DNA of 64,000 nt from Geothrix sp. (GTDB lineage: Bacteria > Acidobacteriota > Holophagae > Holophagales > Holophagaceae), in contig NZ_JAHRYQ010000001.1 of NCBI RefSeq assembly GCF_020622065.1, positions 248,001-312,000 of the forward strand. The letters run 5' to 3'. Under the pieces are notes generated by a model that did not search any database, had not been told where the DNA came from, and saw only the letters and a list, made by a program, of their open reading frames with translations. Shown piece by piece: positions 12,392 through 28,660 of the stretch. A program made the translations under genes and the position numbers. How positions within the stretch are numbered: the stretch's first letter is position 1; each line of letters opens with the position of its first letter.

Positions 12392-13282
12392 CTAGACGCT
12401 TTGGGGACTCAGGCTCGTGTTCAGGCCCGCATCCACCGGCGAAGGGGCCAGGACCACATTGTCGATGAGGCGGGTGCCACCCACGAAGGCCGCCACGCAG
12501 AGGACCGCCGCGCGATCCACCTGACCCTGCAGGGGCTCCAGGGCCTGGACATCCACCAACTCGAGGTACTGGATCGAATCCACGCCGGACAAGGGGCCGC
12601 GGGCGAGGTCCATCAACTTGGCCACCTGCCGTTCGCCGGCCTCGAAGGCGGCCTTGGCAGACAGCAGGCCCTGGCTGAGGCCCAGGGCCCGACGCCGGGC
12701 GTCCTCATCCAGGTAGGTGTTGCGGCTGCTCAGGGCCAAGCCGTCCGCCTCCCGGATGGTGGGCACCACCACCACATCCACGGGCAGGTTCAGGTCGCGG
12801 GCCATGCGCCGGATGACGACGGTCTGCTGGAAATCCTTCTGGCCGAAGAAGGCCAGGTCCGGCTGCACGATGTTGAAGAGCTTGGCCACCACGGTGGCGA
12901 CGCCGCGGAAGTGGCCGGGCCGGAAGCGGCCACAGAGGGGTTCGGCCAGGCGGCCGGGCTCCACATGGGTCTGGAAGCCCGTGGGGTAGATCTCGGCGAC
13001 CTCGGGGAGGAAGAGCACCGTGGTATCGGCCTCCAGGCACAGGTTCTGATCCCGCTCCAGGTCCCGGGGGTAGCTGGTCAGATCCTCGCCGGGGCCGAAC
13101 TGGGTCGGGTTCACGAAGATGGACACGACGGTGGCATCACAACGGGCGGCGCTCTGGCGGATCAGGGCCCCGTGGCCCTCATGCAGGAAGCCCATGGTGG
13201 GGACGAACCCGATGCGTTTGCCTTCGTCCCGCAAGGGTCTCAGAAGGGCGCGCAGATCGGCGATAGTACGGACAACTCGCAT
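12392..13282 (-). CDS. panC: Pantothenate synthetase
   Basis: PanC joins pantoate and beta-alanine using ATP, the last step of pantothenate synthesis. The product is 296 residues. ATP-binding motifs are FVPTMGFLHEGHGALI (the HxGH signature) and the later KDFQQTVVIRRM. Pantoate-site residues lie in SIFVNPTQFGPGEDL, and the KMSKS-like region is ALSSRNTYLDEDAR. ATG 13282 was chosen over an in-frame TTG two codons upstream. It follows panB with a 52-nt gap. Confidence 0.96.
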   Translation of the reverse strand: MRVVRTIADLRALLRPLRDEGKRIGFVPTMGFLHEGHGALIRQSAARCDATVVSIFVNPTQFGPGEDLTSYPRDLERDQNLCLEADTTVLFLPEVAEIYPTGFQTHVEPGRLAEPLCGRFRPGHFRGVATVVAKLFNIVQPDLAFFGQKDFQQTVVIRRMARDLNLPVDVVVVPTIREADGLALSSRNTYLDEDARRRALGLSQGLLSAKAAFEAGERQVAKLMDLARGPLSGVDSIQYLELVDVQALEPLQGQVDRAAVLCVAAFVGGTRLIDNVVLAPSPVDAGLNTSLSPQSV

Positions 13283-13334
13283 GGACAAAAACGGGATCCT
13301 TCAGAAAGCGCCTGTCAGTTTACCAAGGGCGCAA

Positions 13335-14198
13335 TCAGGGGTGCCACTGGGTCAAAACCGGACGAACAGCTTCTGGAAGAGTATAGGATTCCCGCCCATC
13401 CGGGAACCCTCCCCCCCTCACATCCTCGGCCCAGGCCGCCAGGGCATCACGCAGGTCTTGGAATCCTTCGGCATAGCGTCGGACGAATTTCGGGGAGGTC
13501 CCAGGCAGCAGGCCCAGCACATCGTGGAAGACCAGCACCTGGCCCGAGCAGTGGGGACCGGCCCCGATGCCGATGGTGGGGATCTCGACGGTCTCCGTCA
13601 CCTTGGCCGCCAGGTCGGCCGGAATGCCCTCCAGCACCATGCTGAAGCAGCCGGCCTCCTGGAGCCTCTGGGCATCCTCCAGCAGGCGCAGGGCATCGCC
13701 CTTCTGCTTGCCCTGGACCTTGAAGCCCCCCATGGGGTTCACGCTCTGGGGGGTGAGCCCCAGGTGCCCCATGACAGGGATTTCGGCGTCCAGCAGGGCG
13801 TGGATCATGGGCAGGCGCTTGGCCCCGCCCTCGAGCTTCACGGCCTGGGCCCCTCGCTGGAGGAAGCCCCCGGCGTTCCGCAGCGTGTCCTCCACGCTCA
13901 GGTGGAAGCTCAGGTAGGGCATGTCAGCCACCAGCATGGCCATGGGCTGAGTGCGGGCCACAGCCTCCAGATGGTGGTTCATCATGGCCATGCTGACGGG
14001 CAGCGTGTTCTCGAAGCCCAGGCACACATTCCCCACGCTGTCGCCCACGAGGATCATGTCCACCCCGGCGGCATCCGCGATGCGGGCGGTGACGGCATCG
14101 TAGGCCGTGGTCATCACGAGCTTCCGTCCCGCATGGTGCCAGGTATGGAGCTGGGGAAGGGTGACGCGGGCGCGCGTTTCGGCGGGCTGGTGGCTCAT
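13335..14198 (-). CDS. panB: 3-methyl-2-oxobutanoate hydroxymethyltransferase
   Basis: PanB transfers a hydroxymethyl group from methylene-tetrahydrofolate to alpha-ketoisovalerate, giving ketopantoate. The product is 287 residues. Signature segments are MTTAYDAVTARIADAAG, MILVGDSVGNVCLG with metal-binding Asp, ADMPYLSF, AVKLEGG and GHLGLTPQSVN. The catalytic Glu is in MVLEGIPADLAAKVTE. It is the first gene of the panB-panC run. panE is not in the window. Confidence 0.96.
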   Translation of the reverse strand: MSHQPAETRARVTLPQLHTWHHAGRKLVMTTAYDAVTARIADAAGVDMILVGDSVGNVCLGFENTLPVSMAMMNHHLEAVARTQPMAMLVADMPYLSFHLSVEDTLRNAGGFLQRGAQAVKLEGGAKRLPMIHALLDAEIPVMGHLGLTPQSVNPMGGFKVQGKQKGDALRLLEDAQRLQEAGCFSMVLEGIPADLAAKVTETVEIPTIGIGAGPHCSGQVLVFHDVLGLLPGTSPKFVRRYAEGFQDLRDALAAWAEDVRGGGFPDGRESYTLPEAVRPVLTQWHP

Positions 14199-14391: not shown

Positions 14392-15333
14392 TCAGGCCCG
14401 GACGGTGGTCTGGTTTTCCAGAAACCATTGGTAGGTGCTGCGGATGCCTTCGGCCAAGGTGATGCGGTGCCGCCACCCCAACTGATGAAGTCGGGAGACA
14501 TCCAGCAATTTGCGTGGGGTGCCGTCGGGTTTGGTGGGGTCCTGGATGATCTGACCCTCGAAACCCACGACCTCCTTCACCTGCTCGGCCAGTTCGCGAA
14601 TCGTGATGTCCTCGCCGGTTCCAACATTGACGATCTCTGGGGAATCATAGACCTGCATCAGGTGGATGCAGGCATCGGCCAGATCATCCACATGCAGGAA
14701 TTCGCGCCTGGGCGTGCCGGTGCCCCACATGATCACTTCGTGAGCGCCAGAGTGCTTGGCCTCGTGGAATTTGCGGAGCAGGGCAGGGAGGACATGAGAG
14801 GCATTCAGATCGAAATTGTCCCCCGGGCCGTAGAGGTTGGTTGGCATCAAGGAGATGGCATTTAGACCGTATTGGGCCCGGTAGGCCTGGCACATCTTGA
14901 TGCCGGCGATCTTGGCGATGGCGTACCACTCGTTGGTGGGTTCGAGATCACCGGTCAGAAGGTATTCCTCTTTGATCGGTTGGGGGGCCAGCTTCGGATA
15001 GATGCATGAACTTCCCAGGAAAAGCAGTTTCTGAACACCGGAGAAGTGGCTGGCGTCGATGATGTTGTTCTGGACCATGAGGTTGGACCGGATGAAATCC
15101 ACCGGATAGCTGGAGTTCGCCAGAATGCCGCCCACCTTCGCCGCAGCCATGAAGACGAATTCCGGCTTTTCTTGCAGAAACAGCTTGAAGACGGCGCCCT
15201 GATTCTCGAGGTCGCATTCGCCATGGCTTCGGAGGATGAGGTTTTCAAACCCCTCCGCCCGAAGGCGGCGGACGATGGCACTCCCCACCAGCCCCCGGTA
15301 GCCCGCCACAAGAATCCGGCTTTGATGCTGCAT
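14392..15333 (-). CDS. fcl: GDP-L-fucose synthase
   Basis: This NADPH-dependent epimerase-reductase makes GDP-L-fucose from GDP-4-keto-6-deoxymannose. The 313-residue length is standard. It has the nucleotide-binding motif [16 protein letters not shown] and the catalytic triad Ser (FLGSSCIYP), Tyr and Lys (YAIAKIAGI). The family hallmark [20 protein letters not shown] is present, as is the substrate loop [19 protein letters not shown]-mannose dehydratase (gmd) is not adjacent. It fits with the exopolysaccharide genes at the left edge. Confidence 0.93.
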
Positions 15334-15453: not shown

Positions 15454-18400
15454 TCAGTCGGGATCAGAATACGCCGGCAGGTTGACCTGGGTGGGGGTCC
15501 AGTCCACGAGGGGGTCGGCGCGCTCGGGGAGGATGAAGCGCAGGCCCGTGGATTCGACGGTCTGGCGGAAACGATGCAGGTCCTCGCGGCCGAGGAAGGA
15601 GGTCTCGTGGGTGTCTGGAAGCCGGGCCCAGAGCTGCTGAAAGCTGGGGAAGGCATCCTGCAGGCGGGACCGCGCGCCCAGTTTCTCGCCGCGCTGAAGC
15701 AGCAGGAGGGCGCCTTCGGCGCTGGCCTCCAGCACCTGGGCCGGGAACTGCAGCTCGCGGGCGGCAGCCAGCACCTCGCTCCAGGCCCGGAGGGCCTCTT
15801 CCGCCACGGCTTCGGAGGCGGGGACCGTGGACAGCAGCAGGGCGTGGGCACGGTGCCATTCGAGGTCCAGCCAGCGCGATCCTGAGCCTTCCACAGGGCC
15901 CTTGAGGTTTTCGAGGATGGCCCAGCCTTGCTCGGGAGCCTCCTGGCGCGCCTGGCGCGATTCCCGGGCCACGGCCTGGCTGAGGCGGAGCTGGGCGAGC
16001 CGGTGGCGCCAGAGCATTCCGTTGGCTTCGAAGTGATCCGCCGCGGCCTTGAAGAACCGGCCCGCCTCGCGCCAGGCGCTGCGGAACCGGGCGATGTCGC
16101 CCTGCAGCAGGGTGTGATCCCCCCGTTCCTCGGGGGAGAGCACGGGAGACGGAATCGCGGTGGCTTCGAATTGAGCATGATCGGCGGCCACCGGGTCGCC
16201 CAGGGCGGCCAGGGTGCGGGCCCGCCAGAGCTGGATCATGACCGTCCGGGCGCCCTCGCCCAGCCGCTGGGCCCGCTCCAGGGCGCGGTCCAGGTGGGAG
16301 AGAGCCGGCCCCAGGAACTGCTGGAGGCTGCGGACCGTGCCGAGGGCGAAGTGGGCCTGGACCTGGAGGGCCAGGTCGCCCTCCAGGCGGGCTGTCTGAA
16401 GGGCCTCGCGCAGCAGGGCCACGCAGGGCTCGGCCTGTCCTTGCATGAGGTGCACCTGGGCCAGGGCGATCTGGACGGGCACGAGATGACGGAAATCCTG
16501 ATCGTGCTCCAGCAGCCGCTGGGCCGACTGGAGGTGGGTGACCGAACGCTGGAACTGCCCCTGGGCGGCCAGGGCCCGGCCCAGGGTCGTGAGCAGGGCG
16601 GCCTGATCCTGGGGCTGGGGTCGGCCGGCCGGAGGATGGAGGCCTTCTTCCAGCGCGCGGATCCCCTTGGTGAGGTGGCCCTGCAGCAGGTGGAGCTCGC
16701 CCAGGGCCAGCCGCAACCGGGGCTGCTCGGGATGGAGCGGGTGGTCCACCAGGCGCTCGGCGGCGGCCATGATGGCCTCCTGAGCCTCGGCGGGCCGCCG
16801 CAGCTGGAGCTGCAGCATGGCGCGCTTGCGGTGGAGGCGGGCCTCCGCCAGCCGCACGCCTTCGTGGGCGGCGGCCCGGCCCAGGGCCTCCAGCGCACGG
16901 TCCAGGGCTTCGAGGGCCAACTCTCCGGAGGGTCTGGCAGGACCTTCGCCAGGCGGGGGTGTGCCCCGGGCCCAGGCCTCGGCCAGATGTTCCCGGAGCC
17001 TCGCCTCGTCCCAGGGGCGAGGGTCCAACTGCAGGGCCTGCTCCACCATCCGCAGCGTTTCCGAGGGGGTGCCGGGCGGCCTCTGGTCAAGGGCCTCCAG
17101 GGCCCCGGCCAAGGCTGTGGCCTCGTCGGAAGCCAGGGCCTGGAGGGTGACGGAATGGGCCGCGACGCCACCCTGCTCCTGGATCACCGAGAGCAGGGCC
17201 CGGGCCAGTCGCTTCAGCTCGGGAAGGGGGGTGCGGGTCAGCACCATCTCCCGCCAGCGCGGATCGGGGATCGTGACCTGGTCCTGTCGGAGCTGCACCA
17301 GCCGGGAGCCCACGGCGCCCTGGAGGGCGTCCTCCAGGGGATCGCCCTCCAGGCCCAACAGGCGTCCCAGGGCAGCCACCGGCAAGGGGCGCTCGGCCAG
17401 GGCCAGCAGACGGACGAGGGTGGCCGAGGCCGGTGTGAGGCGCTGAAGGCGGCCCAGAAAGATCTGCCGGATGAGGTCGTCCTCGGCCTGGAGGGTGGGG
17501 GGGCGACCCGGGACGGGAATCCAGCGGTTCTGCTCCCAGAGCAGAGCCCCCTCCTGCTGTGCCAGCTCCAGCAGATTCCGCAGCAGCCCCGGGTTGCCCA
17601 GGCTCTGAATGACCAGGCCCGCCAGGTAATCGCCGGGCAGGGCATGGCGGCCCAGCAGATCCTGGAGGACGAGGCGGAGATCCTCGTCCTCCAGGCGGTT
17701 CACGCCCACCAATGCCGCCGCGCTCTCCTGGCGGAGGTCGGCGATGAGGGGCCTGAGTCCGGCACCCTGGGCCCCCGTCGTGAGGGAAAGGAGCCAGGGG
17801 GTTCCTGAGGCGTGGACGATCTCCCGTACGAGACTCAGGACCTCGGGGGTGGCGCGGTCGAGGTCGGACAGGTGAATCAGGCGGGGGTGGTGGAGACTGG
17901 CGAAATCCAGGACCTCCAGGGCCGCCTTCAGTTCCTCTGGGTCGGGGCCCGCCTCCTGGCGATTCGGGTGCCGGCCGCCCGTGAGGAAGGAGAAGGCCTG
18001 CAGCCGGAGGGCCAGGGCCTTGGCCGCTCCGGGCCGCTCGGCATAGAGGTCCACCTCGCTGCCCGCCAGCACGGCCTCGAGAAGCCGGGTGAGGAAGCGG
18101 CCCGCGGATTCATCCGCCGAGGCCTCGAGGCGGTGCACCCAGATGCCCTCGCTTTCGGCCACGGCGCAGGCCCAGGCGGCCAGATGGGCTTTGCCGACGC
18201 CCTCCTCGCCCTGGAGCAGGACGATGCGCTCCATGGGGATGGGCGCGCTGAACCCGAGCATGAGCGACTTCAGGTAGGGGAGTTCCTGGCTGCGGCCCCG
18301 GAGCGGCCGCGAGATGGGCTCGGACAGATCCCGAGCCTGCAGCCAGGGTTGTTCTTCGGATAGCGCCGGGGCCGGGGCCGTCCTGGGCAGGAGGGTCGGG

Positions 18401-18861
18401 ACCACGGCCAGCCCCCAGGGCGGCTCCCCGAGGACCCGCGGGATCTGGGTGAGGCCCGGCCGGAAAGTGATGACTTCGGGGTGCAGGAACCGGGGATGGA
18501 GGTCCTGGGCGAGCTGCTGGGCCAGGTGGCGCAACAGGGCTTCGCGCTGGACTTCCCCCCAGCTGGGCCAGAGCCGCGACAGCGGCGTTCCGTGGAGGGC
18601 CTGGAGATACCAGGCCCGCTCGTCGTCGAATCCGAAGTGGCCGTGAACCGGGTCCAGAGGGCCCGCGTCCAGGAAGCGGGCCAGGAAGGTATCCCGCATC
18701 TGGTCCAGATCCCGGTCCGGGGGCAAAGGCGACCAGACCTGCGCCAGGAACCGCGATCCATCGATCTCCCGCCGCACCAGGTGCCAGGTGCAGCCCGGCC
18801 CCTGGCCCAGGTCCATCAACCCGGTGTACCGGTGGGTTCCGAGGAAGCGCGTCACCTCCAC
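15454..18861 (-). CDS. Degenerate protein kinase-like + STAND/AAA_16 ATPase + TPR protein
   Basis: This 1135-residue multidomain protein starts with GTG. Residues 1-160 resemble a protein-kinase fold that has lost catalysis: a glycine-containing loop (DLGQGPGCTWHLV), a hinge-like AWYLQALHGTPLSRLW, and LHPRFLHPEVITF where HRDxKPxN would lie. An AAA_16-type module begins PLRGRSQELPYLKSLM. Its P-loop is LLQGEEGVGKAHL (218-226), where Ala replaces the usual Ser/Thr after Lys224. The Walker B-like strand is PRLIHLSDLDRA. A winged-helix stretch follows (LTPASATLVRLLALAERPLP). From about 640 to 1040 there are many TPR helices (for example LGELHLLQGHLTKGIRALEEG). The layout resembles kinase-STAND-TPR signalling proteins such as PknK. 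The ligand is unknown. Confidence 0.72.
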   Translation of the reverse strand: MEVTRFLGTHRYTGLMDLGQGPGCTWHLVRREIDGSRFLAQVWSPLPPDRDLDQMRDTFLARFLDAGPLDPVHGHFGFDDERAWYLQALHGTPLSRLWPSWGEVQREALLRHLAQQLAQDLHPRFLHPEVITFRPGLTQIPRVLGEPPWGLAVVPTLLPRTAPAPALSEEQPWLQARDLSEPISRPLRGRSQELPYLKSLMLGFSAPIPMERIVLLQGEEGVGKAHLAAWACAVAESEGIWVHRLEASADESAGRFLTRLLEAVLAGSEVDLYAERPGAAKALALRLQAFSFLTGGRHPNRQEAGPDPEELKAALEVLDFASLHHPRLIHLSDLDRATPEVLSLVREIVHASGTPWLLSLTTGAQGAGLRPLIADLRQESAAALVGVNRLEDEDLRLVLQDLLGRHALPGDYLAGLVIQSLGNPGLLRNLLELAQQEGALLWEQNRWIPVPGRPPTLQAEDDLIRQIFLGRLQRLTPASATLVRLLALAERPLPVAALGRLLGLEGDPLEDALQGAVGSRLVQLRQDQVTIPDPRWREMVLTRTPLPELKRLARALLSVIQEQGGVAAHSVTLQALASDEATALAGALEALDQRPPGTPSETLRMVEQALQLDPRPWDEARLREHLAEAWARGTPPPGEGPARPSGELALEALDRALEALGRAAAHEGVRLAEARLHRKRAMLQLQLRRPAEAQEAIMAAAERLVDHPLHPEQPRLRLALGELHLLQGHLTKGIRALEEGLHPPAGRPQPQDQAALLTTLGRALAAQGQFQRSVTHLQSAQRLLEHDQDFRHLVPVQIALAQVHLMQGQAEPCVALLREALQTARLEGDLALQVQAHFALGTVRSLQQFLGPALSHLDRALERAQRLGEGARTVMIQLWRARTLAALGDPVAADHAQFEATAIPSPVLSPEERGDHTLLQGDIARFRSAWREAGRFFKAAADHFEANGMLWRHRLAQLRLSQAVARESRQARQEAPEQGWAILENLKGPVEGSGSRWLDLEWHRAHALLLSTVPASEAVAEEALRAWSEVLAAARELQFPAQVLEASAEGALLLLQRGEKLGARSRLQDAFPSFQQLWARLPDTHETSFLGREDLHRFRQTVESTGLRFILPERADPLVDWTPTQVNLPAYSDPD

Positions 18862-18933: not shown

Positions 18934-19827
18934 CTAACGCGCGAAGTACGGATCCAGGATCGCGGCCGCGGTGAGGATGAGGGCGAACAGGTTGATGTTC
19001 ATGAAGACGCGGCGGTAGAGGGGGGCGTCCTGGCCGGGGCGCAGGAGGGGGAGGGAGCCGGCGATGAGCCAGAGGGCGCCGAGGCCCAGCATGATCTCAG
19101 CGGGGCGTGAGACCAGCACCCGGAAGATGGGCAGCAGGGCGCAGGCTGCGGCCGTGCCGCAGATCCAGGTGAAGGTCAGCCGCGACAGCCGGGGACGGCC
19201 GAAGACCGTCACCAGGGTGGGGAAGCCAGCCCCCTCATAGCCTTCGGCATGGAGGCCCACCAGCAGCCAGAAGTGGGGCACCTGCCAGATGAAGAAGACG
19301 AAGGCCAGCGCCAGGATGGAGGGATCCGCCACGCTCCCGCCTGCGGCGGTCCAGCCGATGGCGGGGGGCAGCGCCCCGATGAGGGAACCCGGCACCACAG
19401 CGAAGGCGCTGATGCGCTTCAGGGGGGTGTAGAACCCGTTGTACCAGGCCAGGGCCAGGGCCCCCAGCAGCGCGGAAGCCAGGTTGTGGGCCAACAGCAG
19501 GGTCAGGAAGCCCGACACGGCGAGGACCCCAGCGACGAGGGCGGCCCGGCCGGGGGAGATGTCGCCATGGGGGATGGGCCGGCCGGCCGTGCGGGGCATC
19601 CGCGCATCATGCCGCCATTCCTGGACTTCGTTGAGGGCGCTGGAGCCCATGGCGAGCAGCAGGATGCCGATCAGGGTCGTGATGAGGCCCGCGTTCGCAC
19701 CCCGGAGGAAGGCCACATAGCCGGCGGCGGCGGTGAAGGTGGAAGCCCCGGAAATACGCAGCTTGGTCAGCTCCAGGAGGGTGGAGATCGGACTGGGCTT
19801 GGACAGGGGAAGGGCGGCCACGCTCAA
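18934..19827 (-). CDS. ctaB: Protohaem IX farnesyltransferase (haem O synthase)
   Basis: This UbiA-family membrane enzyme attaches a farnesyl group to haem B, giving haem O for the oxidase encoded just upstream. The product is 297 residues with about nine hydrophobic helices. The start is TTG 19827, with AGGAG seven bases upstream. The active-site loop is NEVQEWRHDARMPRTAGRP. Most haem O synthases have Asp where this protein has Glu (N-x3-E), with the rest of MxRTxxRP kept. A haem A synthase (ctaA) is not seen in the window. It lies behind the terminator after coxB, so it may be expressed at a lower level than the oxidase. Confidence 0.9.
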   Translation of the reverse strand: MSVAALPLSKPSPISTLLELTKLRISGASTFTAAAGYVAFLRGANAGLITTLIGILLLAMGSSALNEVQEWRHDARMPRTAGRPIPHGDISPGRAALVAGVLAVSGFLTLLLAHNLASALLGALALAWYNGFYTPLKRISAFAVVPGSLIGALPPAIGWTAAGGSVADPSILALAFVFFIWQVPHFWLLVGLHAEGYEGAGFPTLVTVFGRPRLSRLTFTWICGTAAACALLPIFRVLVSRPAEIMLGLGALWLIAGSLPLLRPGQDAPLYRRVFMNINLFALILTAAAILDPYFAR

Positions 19828-19848
19828 ATGATCACTCCTGGTTCAGCC

Positions 19849-19867
19849 AAAACCCAGCGTGGCTGGG
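19849..19867 (-). terminator. Terminator after coxB
   Basis: On the minus strand CCCAGC and GCTGGG (19867 down to 19853) pair around a 3-nt loop and run directly into TTTT (19852-19849). It sits between coxB and ctaB and probably ends or attenuates the act-cox transcript. Confidence 0.65.
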
Positions 19868-19910
19868 CGGGGGGGCGGGGTGCAGGGCGCAAGCCCGGTC
19901 CCCCGGATCC

Positions 19911-20864
19911 TTAAAGGGTCTTGATGTAGCGCACAACCTCGGTGAGTTCCTGGTCGGTGAGCGGGGTCTTGGGCATGGCGGGCGGATAGCCGCGCACCAC
20001 CTGATCCATGGGATCGGTGATGGCCCGTCGCAGGTAGGCCTCATCCACCGTGATGGACTTGTACGATCCGGCGACGAGGATCTCCTGCTCCTTGCCGTAG
20101 AGGGCCTTGAGGGTGGGGCCCACCTTGGGCTTGCCGTCCACGGAGTGGCAGGCGAGGCAGCCCTTGGCGGTCAGCACGGCGAGGCCCGGGGGCAGGTCCT
20201 TGAGGTCGGGATGGGCCTCGGCGGTACGGATGCTCTTGCCCGGCTCGGGAGCATCCTCGCCGCCGAAGTACCAGGCCTTGAACTCGTCCTCGGGCACGAC
20301 GATGACCTTGCTCAGCATGAGGCTGTGGTCCACGCCGCAGATGACGGTGCACTCGATGTCGTAGGAGCCGAGCTTGGTGGCCTGGAACCAGGTGGTGTTG
20401 GTGCGGGCCGGTACGGCGTCGATCTTCAGGCGGAACGAGGGGACGAAGAACCCGTGCACCACATCGGCGCTGCGGACCTCCATCTTCATGGGCTTGTGGA
20501 TGGGGGCGAAGAGCACCTTGCTCTTCTTGCCGTTGGGGTACTCGAAGGACCAGCTCCACTGGCGGGCGGTGACCTTCACGGCCATGGCATCCCGGGGCGC
20601 CTGGTTCATGTATTCGTAGTTGGTCCAGCCGTAGTAGAAGATCGACAGGAACAGCACCAGGGGGATGGTGGTCCACAGGATCTCGAGGCCGAGGTGGCCC
20701 TCGATCTGCTCGGCCTTCGGGTGGCGCTTCTTGCTGTAGCGCACCACGAAGTAGATCATCAGCGCCGTGATGAAGATCAGGAACGCCACCGAGAGGCCGA
20801 ATACATAGAAGAAGACCGCGTCGGACTTCTGGGCCGAAATGGCGGCTTGGTTCATCCAATCCAT
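19911..20864 (-). CDS. coxB: Cytochrome c oxidase subunit II with fused cytochrome c (caa3 type)
   Basis: Subunit II of 317 residues accepts electrons through CuA. Two N-terminal membrane helices (about 18-42 and 62-80) are followed by the cupredoxin domain. CuA ligands are His137, Cys172, Cys176, His180 and Met183 (CTVICGVDHSLM). The aromatic entry patch is RQWSWSFEYPNG. A C-terminal haem c site, CLACH (236-240), defines a caa3-type enzyme. It is the last gene of the act-cox run. Confidence 0.95.
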   Translation of the reverse strand: MDWMNQAAISAQKSDAVFFYVFGLSVAFLIFITALMIYFVVRYSKKRHPKAEQIEGHLGLEILWTTIPLVLFLSIFYYGWTNYEYMNQAPRDAMAVKVTARQWSWSFEYPNGKKSKVLFAPIHKPMKMEVRSADVVHGFFVPSFRLKIDAVPARTNTTWFQATKLGSYDIECTVICGVDHSLMLSKVIVVPEDEFKAWYFGGEDAPEPGKSIRTAEAHPDLKDLPPGLAVLTAKGCLACHSVDGKPKVGPTLKALYGKEQEILVAGSYKSITVDEAYLRRAITDPMDQVVRGYPPAMPKTPLTDQELTEVVRYIKTL

Positions 20865-20872
20865 GGGAAGCC

Positions 20873-21175
20873 TCAGCGGAAAGCGACGTCGGAGAAGAGC
20901 AGGGCGAAGAAGATCAGCAGGGTGCCCAGGGTCACCAGGATGACGATCTTGAAGAGCGGCCCTTCATACCTCAGGTGCATGAAGAAGTAGAAGACCAGGC
21001 CGGCCTTGAGGGGCGTCAGCGTGAGCAGGCCCCAGACGGCGGCGGTCTGGCCCAGATGGCTGACGCCCACCAGGCAGCCCGTGAGGATCAGCAGGGCCAC
21101 CCAGACCTTGATGAAGGTGCCGTAGCCGGGGTGTTCCTGGGTGTGGTCGGCGGTGTGTGCGGCGTGTTCGCTCAT
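20873..21175 (-). CDS. coxD: Cytochrome c oxidase subunit IV
   Basis: This 100-residue membrane protein has three hydrophobic helices: FIKVWVALLILTGCLVGV, LLTLTPLKAGLVFYFFMHLR and IVILVTLGTLLIFFALLF. The FYFFMHLRYEGP segment is typical of prokaryotic COX4 subunits. The N-terminus is His-rich (SEHAAHTADHTQEHPG). It lies 10 nt after coxC and 8 nt before coxB. Confidence 0.88.
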   Translation of the reverse strand: MSEHAAHTADHTQEHPGYGTFIKVWVALLILTGCLVGVSHLGQTAAVWGLLTLTPLKAGLVFYFFMHLRYEGPLFKIVILVTLGTLLIFFALLFSDVAFR

Positions 21176-21185
21176 GGTCGTGCCC

Positions 21186-21788
21186 TTACGCGGCGAGGTA
21201 GAACAGCGGGAGGAGGAAGATCCAGATCACATCCACGAGGTGCCAGTAGAGGCCGCTGTTCTCCAGGTGTACATAGCGATCCGGGCGGATGCGGTCCGTG
21301 GCCACCCACCAGAGCATGACGCCCAGCAGGGACAACCCGACGATGACATGCAGTCCGTGCAGGCCGGTCATCGTGAAGTAGAGGCCGAAGAAGACCTGTT
21401 CGCCCGGCGGCAGCGTCGCCAGGTGTGGGGAATTCGGATAGAGGCCGTGGTGGAACTTGGCGCCCCATTCGAAGGATTTGATCACCAGGAAGGTGGCGCC
21501 CAGGGCCAGAGTGGTGCCGAGGAAGGCCATGGCCCGCTTCTTTTCCGCACGCTGGATGGCCACGATGGCGAGCACCACCGTGAGGCTGCTGGTGAGCAGC
21601 ACCAGGGTGTTGATCACACCCAGCGTGGCGTTCAGTTCCGAGCCGCCGTGGTGGAACTCCGCCGGGTAGCGGTAGCGCATGTAGGAATAGCCGATGAAAA
21701 GGCCGCCGAAGAGGATGATCTCGGTGACGAGGAACAGCCACATGCCAAGCCGGGCACCAAAATCGTCGCGGTGGACATGCTCACTCAT
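21186..21788 (-). CDS. coxC: Cytochrome c oxidase subunit III
   Basis: Subunit III of 200 residues has five predicted helices, the short form usual in caa3 oxidases. Diagnostic segments are LGMWLFLVTEIILFGGLF with the conserved Glu, FTMTGLHGLHVIVGL with conserved His residues, and WHLVDVIWIFLLPLFYL at the end. Its ATG overlaps the coxA stop as ATGA. Confidence 0.94.
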   Translation of the reverse strand: MSEHVHRDDFGARLGMWLFLVTEIILFGGLFIGYSYMRYRYPAEFHHGGSELNATLGVINTLVLLTSSLTVVLAIVAIQRAEKKRAMAFLGTTLALGATFLVIKSFEWGAKFHHGLYPNSPHLATLPPGEQVFFGLYFTMTGLHGLHVIVGLSLLGVMLWWVATDRIRPDRYVHLENSGLYWHLVDVIWIFLLPLFYLAA

Positions 21789-23404
21789 TTGGTCTCCTGC
21801 TCGAAGTGGTAGGGGCCATGGGTGACGGTGGGAATGGTCTCGAAATTCTCAAGCGGCGGCGGGCTGGGGATGGTCCATTCCAGGGTCACGCCGCCCCAGG
21901 GGTTGTCCTCGGCCTTGGGACCCCGGAAGAGCGCGTAGAGCAGGGTTCCGAAGAACATCAGGAGGCCGAGCACCAGCAGCCAGCTGCCGACGGTAGCCAC
22001 CACATGCATGGTGTGGAACTGGGGCAGGTGGACATAGTAGCGGCGGGGCATGCCCATCATGCCGAGGATCAGCATGCCGAAATAAAGCATGTTGAACCCG
22101 ATGAACATGGGGAACCAAGAGGCGTAGATGGCCTTCTTGGAATACATCCGCCCGACCATCTTGGGGAACCAGTAAGTCAGCGCGGCGAAGAACGCGAAGC
22201 CGGTACCGCCGAACATCACATAGTGGAAGTGGCCGACGATGAAGTAGGTGTCGTGGATGTGCACATTGATGGCCAGGGCACCTTGCATGACGCCCGTGAG
22301 GCCGCCGATGGCGAAGAGGAAGATGAAGGTGAGCGCGAAGAAGAGGGGGGGCTGGAAGTCGATGGAGCCCTTGTAGAGGGTGCTCACCCAGTTGAAGACC
22401 TTGATGGCGCTGGGCACGGCCACGACCATGGTGAGCAGCGAGAAGACCATGGTGGCCACGCTGCTCATGCCGCTGGTGAACATGTGGTGGGCCCAGACCA
22501 GGCTGCCCACGCCGGCGATGGCCATGCTGGAGAAGGCGATGGCCTTGTAGCCGAAGATGGTGCGCTTGGCGAAGGTGGGGATGATCTCGGTGATGGCGCC
22601 CATGGCGGGCAGGATCATGATGTAGACGGCCGGGTGCGAGTAGATCCAGAAGAGGTGCTGGTAGAGCAGCGGATCGCCGCCCTTGCTGGGATCGAAGATG
22701 CCGATGCCGAAGAAGCGCTCGAGGATGACCAGCAGCAGGGTGATGGCCACAATGGGGGTGGCGAGGAGCTGGATCCAGGCCGTGGAGTACAGCGCCCAGC
22801 ACATCAGCGGCATCCGGAACCATTTCATGCCGGGGGCGCGCAGGCGGTGGATGGTGGTGATGAAGTTGATGCCCGTGAGCATGGACGAGAAGCCCAGCAC
22901 GAAGGCGGCGAAGACCGCGAGGCTCACATTGGTGCCGGTCTTCAGGCTGAAGGGCGCATAGAAGGTCCAGCCCGTGTCGGGGGCGCCGCCCCCGGTGAAG
23001 AGGGCCAGCACGGCGAGGATGGCTCCGGCCATGTAGAAGTACCAGGAAGCCAGGTTGAGGCGCGGGAAGGACACATCCTTGGCGCCGATGAGGATGGGCA
23101 GGAAGAAGTTCCCGAAGACCGCCGGCAGGCCCGGCACCACGAACAGGAAGATCATGATCACGCCGTGGAGCGTGAACAGGGCGTTGTAGGTCTGGGCGGT
23201 GATGAGCTTCTGGAAGGTGGTGAGCTGCACCAGGCGCATGACGAAGCCGATGCCCATGCCCACCAGGAAGAAGCTGACCATCGAGTAGAGGTAGAGCAGG
23301 CCGATGCGCTTGTGGTCGGTGGTGGTGAGCCAGGCCATGAGGCCCTTCCGCTCACCCGTGTCCACCAGGAAACTGGGCTGTGCCGTGGACGCGTGGGTGC
23401 TCAT
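21785..23404 (-). CDS. coxA: Cytochrome c oxidase subunit I, A2-type
   Basis: This catalytic haem-copper subunit has 539 residues and 12 helices. It binds low-spin and high-spin haem plus CuB. Haem and copper ligands are visible in LFTLHGVIMIFLF, WIYSHPAVYIMILP (CuB His), VWAHHMFTSGM (CuB His pair) and FIVGHFHYVMFG (both haem His). The usual GHPEV of A1 oxidases is YSHPAV, so the D-channel glutamate is replaced. That defines the A2 subgroup found in caa3 enzymes. It agrees with the cytochrome c fused to coxB. Confidence 0.96.
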   Translation of the reverse strand: MSTHASTAQPSFLVDTGERKGLMAWLTTTDHKRIGLLYLYSMVSFFLVGMGIGFVMRLVQLTTFQKLITAQTYNALFTLHGVIMIFLFVVPGLPAVFGNFFLPILIGAKDVSFPRLNLASWYFYMAGAILAVLALFTGGGAPDTGWTFYAPFSLKTGTNVSLAVFAAFVLGFSSMLTGINFITTIHRLRAPGMKWFRMPLMCWALYSTAWIQLLATPIVAITLLLVILERFFGIGIFDPSKGGDPLLYQHLFWIYSHPAVYIMILPAMGAITEIIPTFAKRTIFGYKAIAFSSMAIAGVGSLVWAHHMFTSGMSSVATMVFSLLTMVVAVPSAIKVFNWVSTLYKGSIDFQPPLFFALTFIFLFAIGGLTGVMQGALAINVHIHDTYFIVGHFHYVMFGGTGFAFFAALTYWFPKMVGRMYSKKAIYASWFPMFIGFNMLYFGMLILGMMGMPRRYYVHLPQFHTMHVVATVGSWLLVLGLLMFFGTLLYALFRGPKAEDNPWGGVTLEWTIPSPPPLENFETIPTVTHGPYHFEQETK

Positions 23405-24246
23405 TCGCCCTCCTCTGACTTGGTCTTGCGCCCCCGGCGGACGAGCGTGGCCACGAAGACCAGGGCCGCCAGGATGATGACGGTGGCGCCGATGGTCGTG
23501 GTGTTCAGGACATACTTGCGCCCTGCGGGGTCATAGCTGAAACAGAACTTCAGGAACTTGTTGATGGTGGGCTGGGCCTCGCCACGGGCGGCCTCCTGGG
23601 CAGCCATCTGGAGATCGGCCGGCACATAGGTGGTGCCATACATGTAGCGGGTCACCTTGCCCTTGGGACTGATGAAGATGATGGCGCCGGCATGGACGAA
23701 GTCATCTCCCACGCGCTTGAACTTGAAGCCGACCGCATCGGCCAGGGCCTTGGTGGTGGCGGCGGGACCGGTGAGGAAACGCCAGGCTGCGGGCGGGAAG
23801 GGCCGGGTGATCTCGCCCAGGTAGTTGGTGCGCTTCTGGGCGGCGATCTCGGGCTCATCCCGCTCATCGAAGCTCACGGTGAGCACCTGGAAATCCTTCC
23901 CGGGCTCGGCCTGGGTGCGGTTCAGCACTTCGGCCACGCCGCTGAGCTGGGGCGTGCAGATGCCCGCGCAGCGGAAGTAGTTCAGGGTGAGGATGGTGGG
24001 CTTGTCGATGAGCGAACGGAGGGTGACGGGCTGGCCATCCTCCGCCTTCAGGACGAGGTCGAGGGGGATCGTGGCCCCCAGCTTCTCGTCCACGCCCACT
24101 TCCTGGGGCGTGAAGGCCGGGGCGGCCTGATCGGTCGGCGCCGATGTCGGTGCCGGCACTGGTGCCTGGGCCCGGAGGGGGCCCCCCAAGAGGGCCGCGG
24201 CCAGCACCAGGCTGGTCCAAGGGGAACGGGTCGGGAGCTTCGACAT
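23401..24246 (-). CDS. SCO1/SenC copper chaperone for CuA assembly
   Basis: This membrane-anchored thioredoxin-fold protein delivers copper to the CuA site of CoxB. It is 281 residues from ATG 24246, which has GAGG seven bases upstream; an in-frame TTG at 24258 is less likely. There is a signal/anchor segment, the copper motif CAGIC (Cys93, Cys97) and the third ligand His185 (DDFVHAGAI). The C-terminal helix TIGATVIILAALVFVATLV is an extra anchor not present in all SCO proteins. The stop overlaps coxA by 4 nt. Confidence 0.92.
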   Translation of the reverse strand: MSKLPTRSPWTSLVLAAALLGGPLRAQAPVPAPTSAPTDQAAPAFTPQEVGVDEKLGATIPLDLVLKAEDGQPVTLRSLIDKPTILTLNYFRCAGICTPQLSGVAEVLNRTQAEPGKDFQVLTVSFDERDEPEIAAQKRTNYLGEITRPFPPAAWRFLTGPAATTKALADAVGFKFKRVGDDFVHAGAIIFISPKGKVTRYMYGTTYVPADLQMAAQEAARGEAQPTINKFLKFCFSYDPAGRKYVLNTTTIGATVIILAALVFVATLVRRGRKTKSEEGE

Positions 24247-24254
24247 GGCGGGCC

Positions 24255-24962
24255 TCAACGCTGTACCGGGGCAGCAGGCTTGGCCTCGGCCCGGGCCGAT
24301 TCATACTCGCGGCAGAGGAGATCCACGGCCCGCGACACGGGGATGCGGTTGGGGATCACCTCGCCGGCGCTGGCGAACAGCTTCTCCAGTGCGGCGATGG
24401 CCTTGGGGTCGCTGGCGCCGTGGTCATAGGCTCCGAGCGACTGCACCACATGGGCCAGGGCCATGCGGTCCTTCTTGGAGAGGTAGGCGTAGGAGACCAT
24501 CGAGCTGCCCTTGATGCCCTCCTCCAGGGTCTTGTAGATGTCTTCCACGCGGGTGCCGTTCTTCCAGGCCGCCTTGACCGTGAAGTTGCGGGGCTTGGGG
24601 GTGAGCCCCGTGCCGCCGGGGCCATCGCCCTTGCCATCCACACCATGGCAGGTGGCGCAGGTCTGGGCGTAGAGCGCCTTGCCGCGGGCCATGAGCGCGG
24701 GATTCGGCGTCATCACGGTCGCCGGATCGATGGGTGGGATGACCTGCCGGGCGGTGGCGGGATAGTCGGTGGGATCCAGCCAGCCCGTCTCGCCCTGCAC
24801 AGCCTGGATGGGCGCGTCCGGCGTGGTGTGGGCCTGGTAGCGCAGCCCGGGTAGGACGGTGAAGGCGAAGAAGCCGGCGATGAAGATGAAGCAGATCACC
24901 ACCAGCAGGGCGGAGCCCAGGCGCTTCAGCTCCTCGGAGGAGAGGTAATCGTGGATCTTCAT
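24255..24962 (-). CDS. Membrane-anchored monohaem cytochrome c of the act operon
   Basis: This 235-residue cytochrome c has an N-terminal membrane helix (about 16-38). Its single haem motif is CATCH (102-106), followed by GVDGKGDGPGGTGLTPKPRN, typical of class I domains. A Met ligand probably lies in SSMVSYAYLSKKDRMAL. It sits between actF and sco, its ATG overlapping the actF stop (ATGA). Because ActE is already fused to ActD here, this appears to be an additional cytochrome. It could pass electrons from alternative complex III to the caa3 oxidase (inference). Confidence 0.85.
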   Translation of the reverse strand: MKIHDYLSSEELKRLGSALLVVICFIFIAGFFAFTVLPGLRYQAHTTPDAPIQAVQGETGWLDPTDYPATARQVIPPIDPATVMTPNPALMARGKALYAQTCATCHGVDGKGDGPGGTGLTPKPRNFTVKAAWKNGTRVEDIYKTLEEGIKGSSMVSYAYLSKKDRMALAHVVQSLGAYDHGASDPKAIAALEKLFASAGEVIPNRIPVSRAVDLLCREYESARAEAKPAAPVQR

Positions 24963-26122
24963 AGGCGGAACTCCAGGCCCTCGCGCAGGAAGGGATCGCC
25001 AACGGGCATGTCCTCGCCCTTCTGCATGGCGCCGCGGACCCAGAGGAGGATCCCGCCCAGGAAGAAGAGGGCGAAGCTGAGCTCGGGCCAGGAGAAGTGC
25101 GGCTTGGCGCCGAGCACGGGGAAGATGAGCCAGTAGATGTCCAGGACATGGGCGCCCAGCATGAGCAGGGCCACCCGGCGCAGACGCCTGGGGTCCTTCT
25201 TCGAATCGCGGGTCACCAGGGCGAAGAAGGGCAGCACGAAATGCAGGAGGGCGAGGGAGATGGTGATGGCGCGCCAGGCGCCGGCCAGGCGGACCTTGTA
25301 GTAGATGACCTCATCCGGCAGGTTGGCGTACCACATGAGCATGTACTGGGCGAAGCCGATGTAGGACCAGAACACCGTGAAGGCGAAGAGGAAGCCGCCC
25401 AGGTTGTAGAGGTGGTCGCCGCGCACGCCCTCGAGCCGGCCCTGGTCCTGGAGGTAGAGGACCGCCAGCGCCGTGGCGGCCAGGCCGCTGAGGAAGGCCC
25501 CGGCGAACACATAGACGCCGAAGATGTCGCTGTACCACTCGGGCGTGAGGCCGGAGATCCAGTCGAAGGCCACCAGGGTGATCACCAGGGCGAAGATCGC
25601 CATGAAGGCGGGGGCGAATTTGCGGGCGCGGACATTGAAAGCCGGGTCCTTGGAGGCGTCCTGCTTCAGCGAACCGCCCACCAGCACGCCCAGGCCCAGG
25701 AGCACGAGGGCGAAGGCGATGAGGGTGCGGACGGAGAAGAAGGGAAGGCTCAGCCAGAAGGCCTTGCCCGCCAGGATGGGGTGGTGGGCCGCCTCGGGCC
25801 GGGCCCCGGGGTAGAGGACGGGAATGGCGGCCAGGGCGATGAGGCCCACGGGGATGGCGGGGATCAGGAGGGTGGCCAGGCGCTCGGGGATGCGGCGCAC
25901 GGGCACGCTCCACTTGGCGCTCACCAGGTGTTCCAGGGCCACGATGAAGAGGGAGCCCAGGCCCAGGGTGAACAGGAGCACGAACCAGAGGATCCAGTTG
26001 GCCCAGAACCGCTCGGGACCGGCGGCGAAGTAGGCGCCGGCCACGCCCAGGGCCCCGAGGGCCGTGGCCCCCCAGAGCAGGTTGGAGGTGTTGTTGTTCT
26101 GACTCATGGGGTTCTGGCTCAT
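24959..26122 (-). CDS. actF: Alternative complex III subunit ActF
   Basis: This is an integral membrane subunit of 387 residues with about ten helices, of the NrfD-like short type. ATG 26122 was chosen because it overlaps the preceding stop as ATGA; the frame is open upstream to 26386 but inside the previous gene. Characteristic stretches are FVLLFTLGLGSLFIVALEHL, VFWSYIGFAQYMLMWYANLP and the quinol-site-type LLHFVLPFFALVTRDSKK. It pairs with ActC in the membrane. Confidence 0.9.
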   Translation of the reverse strand: MSQNPMSQNNNTSNLLWGATALGALGVAGAYFAAGPERFWANWILWFVLLFTLGLGSLFIVALEHLVSAKWSVPVRRIPERLATLLIPAIPVGLIALAAIPVLYPGARPEAAHHPILAGKAFWLSLPFFSVRTLIAFALVLLGLGVLVGGSLKQDASKDPAFNVRARKFAPAFMAIFALVITLVAFDWISGLTPEWYSDIFGVYVFAGAFLSGLAATALAVLYLQDQGRLEGVRGDHLYNLGGFLFAFTVFWSYIGFAQYMLMWYANLPDEVIYYKVRLAGAWRAITISLALLHFVLPFFALVTRDSKKDPRRLRRVALLMLGAHVLDIYWLIFPVLGAKPHFSWPELSFALFFLGGILLWVRGAMQKGEDMPVGDPFLREGLEFRL

Positions 26123-27261
26123 GGAATGGCCACCTTCAGGTCCTCGTCCTTGGCGTTCTGGGCGCGCTGCAGGGCCCGCACATAATGCACCACGGCCCAG
26201 CGCTGGGACTCGCTGAGGTCCGCGGCGTGCGACGGCATGGCGTTCTTCCCGTTCACGATGGCCCAGTAGATCTTGCCGTCGGGGTAATCGCGGAACTGCT
26301 GGGCCTGCAGGTTGGCGGGCTTGCCACCATAGGCGGCGGTCAGGCTGCCCACGCCGTCGCCCACGGAGCCGTGGCAGACCTCGCAACGGTTCTTGTAGGC
26401 CTGACGGCCTGCGGCGAAGACTTCCCGGGTGCGCGGCAGGGGGTTCGCCAGGGTGGCGGCTTCCTCCTGGGTGCCCGTGGCGGTGGGCAGGTGTCCCCGC
26501 GCCACGGTGCCGGCCACTGGCCGCTGCATGCCATGGCCATCCTTGAAGAAGCTGGAGGCCTTCTGGGCGTTCAGGCGGGGCTGGTCCTGCATGTATTTCA
26601 TGGGGGCCACCACCGGGAACAGCTTGATGGCGAAGTACATCACGAGACCGGCGCCCAGGCAGGCGGTGAAGATGCCCCCAGCCGCCCGCAGGATGTAGTC
26701 GCTCGTGAGGAAGGGGCTCCGGTCCGGTGCCGGCAGGATCTCCACCTGGGAGGCCCCGGCGGCCTGGAGGGCGGCGGCTGCGGCGGCGCTGTCGAAGGCC
26801 TCGCTTTCGGCTTCCAGGGCCAGGACATACCGATCGCGGGTGATGCTCTTGATGGACTTGGACGACAGCACCGGGTGCCCGAAGAAGGGCAGCTTGTTCA
26901 GGAGGAACAGCATCCCCAGGCCCGCGGTGAAGGTGGCGAAGAGCACCGTCACTTCGAACATGATGGGGATGAAGGCCTCCCAGGAGTCCGGGGCCTTGCC
27001 GCCCGTGATGATCGGGTAGTCGATGGCGCTGATCCAGTACTGGAACCCGAAGGCGGTGAGGGCGCCCAGGACACCCATGACCAGCACCATGCCGCCCAGG
27101 GGGGAGCGGCGGAGGCCCAGGGCCTCTTCGATGCCGTGGATGGCGTAGGGCGTGTAGGCCTCGACGGTGCCGAGCTTGCTGGCGCGCACCTTGGGGATGG
27201 CCTGCATCAGGGCATCGGGCGTCTCGAAGGTGCCGAGGACGGCGTAGGAGGTCTCAGACAT
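26119..27261 (-). CDS. Fused alternative complex III subunits ActD-ActE
   Basis: This 380-residue fusion starts at ATG 27261, which has GGAG nine bases upstream; ATG 27276 lacks such a signal. Residues 1-175 are ActD (DUF3341): YAVLGTFETPDALMQA, YTPYAIHGIEEALGLRRSPL and two membrane helices. From about 190 the ActE part starts with its own helix (AAGGIFTACLGAGLVMYF), then the ActE hallmark RPVAGTVARGH and haem site CEVCH (293-297). A likely axial Met lies in NAMPSH. ActD and ActE are often separate genes. Here they form one chain with no internal stop. Confidence 0.88.
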   Translation of the reverse strand: MSETSYAVLGTFETPDALMQAIPKVRASKLGTVEAYTPYAIHGIEEALGLRRSPLGGMVLVMGVLGALTAFGFQYWISAIDYPIITGGKAPDSWEAFIPIMFEVTVLFATFTAGLGMLFLLNKLPFFGHPVLSSKSIKSITRDRYVLALEAESEAFDSAAAAAALQAAGASQVEILPAPDRSPFLTSDYILRAAGGIFTACLGAGLVMYFAIKLFPVVAPMKYMQDQPRLNAQKASSFFKDGHGMQRPVAGTVARGHLPTATGTQEEAATLANPLPRTREVFAAGRQAYKNRCEVCHGSVGDGVGSLTAAYGGKPANLQAQQFRDYPDGKIYWAIVNGKNAMPSHAADLSESQRWAVVHYVRALQRAQNAKDEDLKVAIP

Positions 27262-28660
27262 GGTGGTCGTCTCCATGGTGAGAAGGTTGCGCGTCCGGCA
27301 GGATGGCCTTCACCTCGGTCGTGGCGATGACCGGCAGCACCCGGGCGAAGAGCAGGACCAGGGTGAAGAAGATGCCGAAGGTGCCTAGGAGGATGCCGAA
27401 GTCCACCATGGTGGGCTTGTAGATGCGCCAGGCGGAAGGCAGGTAGTCCTGGTGCAGCGAGATCACGATGATCACGAAGCGCTCGAACCACATGCCGATG
27501 GTCACGCCCGTGGCCACCAGGATCATCCAGAAGTAGCTGGCCCGGGCCTTCTTGAACCAGAGGATCTGGGGGATGAGGATGTTGCAGCTGATGGTCACCC
27601 AGCCGGCCCAGCCGTAGGTGCCCGTGATGATGTTCATGAAGCCGTGGTGGAGGAACTCGTTCATGGAATACCAGGCCGTGAAGCCTTCCATCATGTAGCT
27701 GTAGCCCATGATGCAGCTCATGGAGAGGATCACCTTGTTCATCACATCCAGGTGCCGCATGGTGATGAGGTTCTTCAGCTCCATGGTCTCGCGCACCACC
27801 ACCAGCACCATCACCACCATGGCGAAGCCGGCGAAGATGGCGCCCGCCACGAAGTAGGGCGGGAAGATGGTCATGTGCCAGCCAGGCACCACGGAGGTGG
27901 CGAAGTCGAAGCTCACCACCGAGTGCACGGACAGCACCAGGCCCGTGGCCAGGCCTGCCAGCAGCAGGTAGGCCTTCTCGTAGTGCTGCCAGTGGGAGGC
28001 GGCCCCACGCCAGCCCATGGCCAGCACGGTGTAGATGACCTTCCGCAGCTTGCTGGTGGTCCGGTCGCGCATGGAGGCGATGTCGGGGATCAGGCCCAGG
28101 TACCAGAACATCAGGGACACGGAGAAGTAGGTGTTCACCGCGAAGACATCCCACAGCAGCGGCGACCGGAAGTTGGTCCAGAGGGCGCGCTGGTTCGGGT
28201 AGGGGAAGAGCCAGTAGGCCAGCCAGGGGCGGCCCACATGGATCAGCGGGAAGATCACGGCGCAGATGACCGCGAAGATCGTCATGGCCTCGGCAAAGCG
28301 GGCGATGGCGTTGCGCCAGCGCTTGCGGAAGAGGAAGAGGATGGCCGAGATCAGCGTGCCGGCGTGGCCGATGCCCACCCAGAACACGAAGTTGATGATG
28401 TCGAAGGCCCAGAACACGGGGCTGCTGTTGCCCCAGGCGCCGATGCCCAGGTAGAAGGTGTAGCCGATGCTGACGACACCGATCAGGGCGGCGGTCAGCG
28501 TGATGGCCAGGGCGAAGTACCACTTCCTGGGGGGCTTGGTCTCGGGGAAGGCCAGCACCTGGTCGTCGAGGCTGCCGGGCGTGACCTTGCCCACATACAG
28601 CGACGGCTCAACCAGGCCTGCCGGGATGTCGCCGGCGGGAATGGCGGCATCAGTGCGCAT
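27254..28660 (-). CDS. actC: Alternative complex III subunit ActC (NrfD/PsrC-like)
   Basis: This quinol-binding membrane subunit has 468 residues and about ten helices. It belongs to the NrfD/PsrC polysulfide-reductase membrane family. Recognisable parts are FVFWVGIGHAGTLISAILFL, FPLIHVGRPWLAYWLFPYPN, GWRGAASHWQHYEKAYLLLA and FVGMWFERFVII-like (actually IGMWFERFVIIVI). Quinol is probably oxidised near the periplasmic-side helix bundle next to ActB. The start overlaps actB by 11 nt. Confidence 0.94.
   Translation of the reverse strand: MRTDAAIPAGDIPAGLVEPSLYVGKVTPGSLDDQVLAFPETKPPRKWYFALAITLTAALIGVVSIGYTFYLGIGAWGNSSPVFWAFDIINFVFWVGIGHAGTLISAILFLFRKRWRNAIARFAEAMTIFAVICAVIFPLIHVGRPWLAYWLFPYPNQRALWTNFRSPLLWDVFAVNTYFSVSLMFWYLGLIPDIASMRDRTTSKLRKVIYTVLAMGWRGAASHWQHYEKAYLLLAGLATGLVLSVHSVVSFDFATSVVPGWHMTIFPPYFVAGAIFAGFAMVVMVLVVVRETMELKNLITMRHLDVMNKVILSMSCIMGYSYMMEGFTAWYSMNEFLHHGFMNIITGTYGWAGWVTISCNILIPQILWFKKARASYFWMILVATGVTIGMWFERFVIIVISLHQDYLPSAWRIYKPTMVDFGILLGTFGIFFTLVLLFARVLPVIATTEVKAILPDAQPSHHGDDHHV

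Follow-up and report, generated by a model that had tools for sequence, protein, structure and literature searches.

A Holophagaceae protein from Geothrix joins a probable truncated pseudokinase to a degenerate STAND NTPase and a TPR array

The window analysed here, a 64,000-nucleotide stretch of the genome of a Geothrix sp., a soil bacterium, carries on its minus strand, at exactly the positions given in the initial annotation, a reading frame of 1135 uninterrupted codons that starts with GTG. The features of this gene and its neighbours are listed in Table 1. The encoded 1135-aa protein comprises a putative truncated kinase domain, a STAND core, a long helical arm with TPR motifs and a conserved tail. 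On the same strand it follows ctaB by about 75 bp and lies upstream of an fcl-like gene, panB and panC. A search of the genome found a single copy of the gene, and a scan for promoters and terminators found none.

Table 1. Features of the gene and its surroundings, with positions counted from the first letter of the window
Feature	Position	Strand	Basis
Whole gene: predicted truncated pseudokinase, degenerate STAND NTPase and TPR protein	15454..18861	-	open frame, 1135 aa
Putative truncated, catalytically dead protein-kinase fold, residues 1-165 (about 2-162)	18367..18861	-	AlphaFold, Foldseek, VIA-align, profile match
Place of the β3 ATP-binding Lys, residue 41; Gln in 27/27	18739..18741	-	27-sequence alignment
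Place of HRD, residues 123-125 (PRF); catalytic Asp gone in 27/27	18487..18495	-	profile match and 27-sequence alignment
Likely place of DFG, residues 141-143 (PRV); Pro-Arg in 27/27	18433..18441	-	register set by hand from domain order
STAND NTPase, helical and winged-helix core, residues 186-560	17182..18306	-	profile match, fold match
Walker A, GEEGVGKA, residues 218-225	18187..18210	-	27-sequence alignment
Walker B region, RLIHLSDLDR, residues 327-336	17854..17883	-	27-sequence alignment
GxP motif, GNP, residues 422-424; kept in 27/27	17590..17598	-	27-sequence alignment
Winged-helix PDPRWR, residues 532-537; His of relatives replaced in 27/27	17251..17268	-	27-sequence alignment
Helical arm and TPR array, residues 570-1080	15622..17154	-	full-length model secondary structure, TPR matches, profile match
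Conserved tail with DWTPTQ, residues 1081-1135	15457..15621	-	conservation across genera
ctaB, encoding a UbiA-family protohaem farnesyltransferase; last gene of the cox cluster	18934..19827	-	neighbour analysis
fcl-like NAD epimerase, between the gene and panB in own lineage only	14392..15333	-	neighbour analysis
panB, ketopantoate hydroxymethyltransferase, conserved downstream neighbour	13335..14198	-	neighbour analysis
panC, pantoate-beta-alanine ligase, conserved after panB	12392..13288	-	neighbour analysis

Homologues with 38-97% identity were found in Geothrix and in four further genera of the Holophagaceae, with near relatives both in named Geothrix genomes and in metagenome bins. A search of 297 Acidobacteriota genomes recovered the gene from nearly all sampled members of the genus and from these four other genera (G087, G106, G150 and G284), and no full-length homologue was found outside the family among the 297. 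The same search found no copy in two genomes of the genus (G065 and G252), which indicates that the gene is not essential; nor was a copy seen in the small-genome relatives G174 and G292, the panB locus of G292 stopping at a contig end. In G252 an intact Ser/Thr kinase (Pkinase E 1.8e-37) lies directly upstream of panB (L087:9727-12825) and has a long C-terminal part that matches nothing in Pfam. We rejected this kinase as a replacement for the missing gene because Pfam gives it no STAND match.

These absences, together with the loss of catalytic residues described below, could be taken as signs of a functionless gene on its way to becoming a pseudogene. However, the frame is open in almost every homologue, being split on one metagenome contig, and comparison with the closest relative gave a dN/dS of 0.060, with values of 0.21-0.29 for three other relatives. 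Similar values were obtained for the parts (0.11-0.38 for the pseudokinase and 0.05-0.31 for STAND), and both the DWTPTQ tail and the gene order are conserved across genera. The gene is thus under purifying selection along its whole length and is not decaying, and we consider the pseudogene explanation extremely improbable.

The evidence on the N-terminal domain comes from structure prediction and profile comparison. An AlphaFold model of residues 1-195, built from a shallow alignment of 19 sequences, reached a pLDDT of 81.5 and a pTM of 0.80, and showed the order β1-β2-β3-αC-β4-β5-αD-αE followed by a short hairpin; two of the five models in this run were poor (pLDDT 43-44). The full-length model (pLDDT 62, pTM 0.41) fell below 50 at the N-terminus, so the separate model alone was used for this part. 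All matches listed by Foldseek were protein kinases (best E 5.4e-5), and the leading ones had TM-scores that were moderate, at about 0.31-0.43; VIA-align against kinases reached a Z of 9.7 across 157 residues. When profiles were compared, the N-terminus aligned with kinase domains taken from Acidobacteriota kinase-STAND proteins over 123 collinear columns that span the first strand through the catalytic loop, with a score of 31.7; none of 100 column shuffles scored above 20.3, and the reversed controls gave 13.9-18.2. Since HHalign's own probability for this match is only 28% and two of the five AlphaFold models were poor, the kinase assignment leans on the concordance of the methods. Sequence searches of the N-terminus against Pfam, NCBIfam and the PDB gave no kinase match; of two checks suggested by the initial annotation, the structural comparison came out kinase-like and the HMM search for Pkinase came back empty.

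The domain is also short. About 180 residues separate its start from the STAND core, versus 288 in L051, an Acidobacteriota kinase-STAND-TPR-GAF-sigma54 activator of 1769 aa, which implies the loss of the activation segment and of most late C-lobe helices, a deficit of about 105 residues relative to the kinase-STAND proteins. The predicted N-lobe and the αD and αE helices match kinases and the remaining C-lobe is absent, leaving a partial fold only. The kinase-like N-terminus without its lysine, HRD and DFG residues, as first described, stands, whereas the full kinase layout does not.

Catalytic motifs were read from an alignment of 27 homologous sequences, with the αC and DFG registers set by hand. 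Beyond the places given in Table 1, the position of the αC glutamate is occupied by Thr, Ala, Ile, Ser or Asp, that of the HRD aspartate by Phe, Cys, Leu, Tyr or Ala and that of the asparagine of the catalytic loop (DxKxxN) by Val, Ala or Gly, and the likely position of the DFG aspartate is Pro in every sequence. None of the five residues that mark a Hanks-type Ser/Thr kinase (β3 Lys, αC Glu, HRD Asp, DxKxxN Asn and DFG Asp) is present in any of the 27. The agreement of these methods suggests that residues 1-165 form a truncated, catalytically dead protein-kinase fold. The competing view, that this is an unrelated α/β interaction domain merely resembling a kinase N-lobe, would account for the empty Pfam and PDB sequence searches, the moderate TM-scores given above and VIA-align Z values of 8-10 that rise only somewhat over background. 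It is difficult to reconcile with a profile match that exceeds all shuffles and stays collinear between the first strand and the catalytic loop, with Foldseek matches that, as listed, are kinases throughout, and with the location of the domain exactly where the nearest kinase-STAND relatives carry their kinase; we judge it improbable.

For the central region, a profile comparison gave E 1.7e-23 between residues 186-479 and the STAND part of the kinase-STAND relatives, and in a fold search with the full-length model the STAND protein PH0952 (6mfv), which has a TPR sensor, ranked first among solved structures (E 1.4e-11). The core is thus homologous to the NBD-HD-WHD core of STAND proteins and retains GxP, but it lacks GK[ST] and an acidic Walker B. 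In a joint alignment the kinase-STAND relatives have GK[ST], a Walker B [DEN]D and a winged-helix histidine. As the initial annotation had noticed, the P-loop of the Geothrix protein ends in GKA rather than GKS/T, and the last position is Ala, Glu or another residue in 26 of the 27 homologues, with Ser/Thr gone. The first acid of Walker B is lost throughout and the second in 19 (kept in eight). The sole homologue with GKS (L014) still lacks the first Walker B acid and the winged-helix histidine. With the degenerate sites common to the whole set and GKS found in one member only, a misreading that intact homologues might have exposed is ruled out, and the earlier proposal that both enzymes are degenerate is strengthened, since Walker B and the winged-helix histidine are degenerate as well.

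In PH0952, ADP is contacted by the P-loop, GxP and the winged-helix histidine (PMC6468293), and we infer that the histidine of the kinase-STAND relatives is the counterpart of this ADP-contacting residue. Judged from the aligned residues, the STAND switch is impaired across the family, and GxP alone is kept. The P-loop lysine and glycines persist in 25 of the 27 sequences, so the protein may still bind nucleotide. One could envisage a surviving nucleotide-dependent switch, in which ADP or ATP is held by these residues with no Mg2+-dependent hydrolysis, and ligand binding to the TPR array toggles open and closed states, exposing the half-kinase. The universal GxP, which packs onto the P-loop in PH0952 (PMC6468293), and the retained Walker A lysine would suit such a switch, but every homologue has lost the first Walker B acid and the winged-helix histidine, all except one have lost the Walker A Ser/Thr, and the two deepest members have replaced the Walker A lysine and nevertheless keep the gene. 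We regard a persisting switch as unlikely.

The TPR array previously proposed to follow the ATPase part was borne out by three lines of evidence: residues of about 570-1080 form helical hairpins in the full-length model, TPR_12 and TPR_MalT give weak matches in several members, and the region matches the TPR region of the relatives in a profile comparison (E 1.3e-13). The C-terminal tail on its own has no significant match to the relatives. The 1135-aa protein contains no output domain (GAF, sigma-54, DNA-binding or other), and Pfam and NCBIfam scans found no C-terminal DNA-binding domain of the MalT/LuxR type.

Pseudokinases have been described before, as have STAND proteins and kinase-STAND-TPR fusions. 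Outside the family, the nearest relatives have the architecture kinase-STAND-TPR-GAF-sigma54. L051 shares the domain order of the Geothrix protein and matches it by profile in the STAND and TPR regions; unlike the Geothrix protein, it has a full kinase with HND and DFG, GKS, the sequence LEDLHWAD and a GAF-sigma54-Fis end. The succession of a STAND core and a TPR sensor is also that of PknK-type and MalT-type STAND regulators and of PH0952. STAND proteins switch through ADP/ATP exchange (PMC6468293), whereas in the Geothrix protein the residues needed for it are mostly lost. PknK-like proteins combine an active kinase with STAND and TPR parts; here the layout alone is kept, and the kinase is truncated and apparently dead. 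The layout also occurs in another Acidobacteriota family (L062 and L063, from G024 and G050), where a pseudokinase also precedes STAND and TPR parts. In contrast to the Geothrix protein, that pseudokinase is of full length, without HRD and DFG, Walker A is an intact GKT and a sigma54 output domain is present. The two pseudokinases show no detectable profile match to each other, making an independent loss likely.

Of the catalogued bacterial pseudokinase families (ActPs1-3, GLW, CP1, DYD and DLHK), several have lost all three catalytic motifs, as seen here; the main text of a review (PMC12599244) does not mention TPR, STAND or Acidobacteriota. EssB/YukC and TraF of bacterial secretion systems are reported to use a pseudokinase fold as an interaction hub (PMC13037476); these are membrane proteins of secretion machines and are not known to contain STAND or TPR parts. 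PADLOC assigned no defence system, the catalogued anti-phage STAND systems included, and gave only a weak generic TPR match. A partnership with an intact kinase-STAND paralogue is unsupported, none having been found in the same genome. We found no description of the 15454-18861 protein in the open-licence literature, nor one of a double loss with a truncated kinase that is fixed in a family and tied to panB-panC, an absence that is weak evidence.

Kinases work by phosphotransfer. With catalysis and the standard nucleotide switch seemingly gone and the whole length still under selection, the simplest reading is that the protein is a non-catalytic scaffold, to which we assign a probability of roughly 0.7. 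On this view it derives by degeneration from the kinase-STAND-TPR architecture seen in other Acidobacteriota, with the kinase domain cut to its N-lobe and first helices and stripped of every catalytic residue, with a STAND switch that has given up most of its Mg2+-coordinating and phosphate-contacting residues, and with no output domain. Such a protein would most likely hold other proteins together independently of nucleotide, or at most stabilised by it: partners would bind to the TPR array and to the half-kinase, and the STAND core would set their geometry. The earlier suggestion of a sensor or scaffold survives in its doubly degenerate premise, with scaffolding as the putative function. A family-wide, single-copy protein with both activities apparently disabled would offer a natural test of nucleotide-free STAND-TPR signalling or scaffolding.

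The gene order gives some indication of what the scaffold might serve. It had been proposed that the gene stands alone beside fcl, and this was wrong: fcl adjoins it only in this genome and in one relative with 97% identity and is a local insertion, whereas ctaB precedes the gene and panB-panC are conserved downstream. In Geothrix the gene mostly starts 70-90 bp past ctaB, on the strand of the cytochrome oxidase cluster and upstream of panB-panC, and in several Geothrix genomes other genes or longer gaps intervene in the ctaB-to-panB order. The order and strand of panB-panC after the gene are kept in five genera (Geothrix and those of G087, G106, G150 and G284). In three deep genera (L060, L066 and L068) the stop of the gene overlaps the start of panB in a 4-base ATGA, and in G106 the gap to panB is about 175 bp. 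At panB loci of other families, no such gene was found within 1.5 kb upstream (less at contig ends). On the upstream side, terminal-oxidase or ACIII genes lie next to it in most genomes. Divergent COX1-family genes precede the homologue in G087 (L066:9861-12534) and G106 (L067:10456-13282), with FixO-type cbb3 subunits confirmed in the former and neighbours that look alike in the latter. In G284 the divergent upstream genes are ACIII-type, the ActB call resting on a 60% match to the product of window positions 28650-31652, which has Fe-S and molybdopterin domains. In G150 (L068) Maf-like and Lnt-like genes, named from sequence alone, lie upstream.

The overlap with panB, being conserved, suggests one specific candidate partner in CoA biosynthesis. 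The scaffold is most likely co-expressed with the pantothenate genes, and the link to panB-panC suggests, with much less confidence than we place in the scaffold reading itself, a role in CoA precursor supply; we infer that it would serve something co-expressed with panB-panC, often together with respiratory oxidase genes. PknG, a TPR-bearing kinase reported to act in metabolic control (PMC8546545), offers a precedent. Nevertheless, there is close to an even chance that the link to panB-panC and the oxidase genes reflects an inherited neighbourhood only and that the protein serves an unrelated process. This would explain why in several Geothrix genomes further genes separate it from panB and why the upstream oxidase type varies or is absent, as with the Maf-like and Lnt-like genes of L068, but it leaves unexplained that five genera keep the strand and order and that three have the ATGA overlap. 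A more specific scenario, in which a doubly dead, family-specific protein was at one time translationally coupled to panB and regulates, without catalysis, the supply of pantothenate and CoA so that it keeps pace with the respiratory chain, is speculative and, on present evidence, doubtful. As a separate observation, window positions 18934-31652 hold a large co-directional respiratory cluster that encodes molybdopterin/Fe-S and NrfD subunits (ACIII-like) and COX1-family oxidase subunits, and that includes ctaB.
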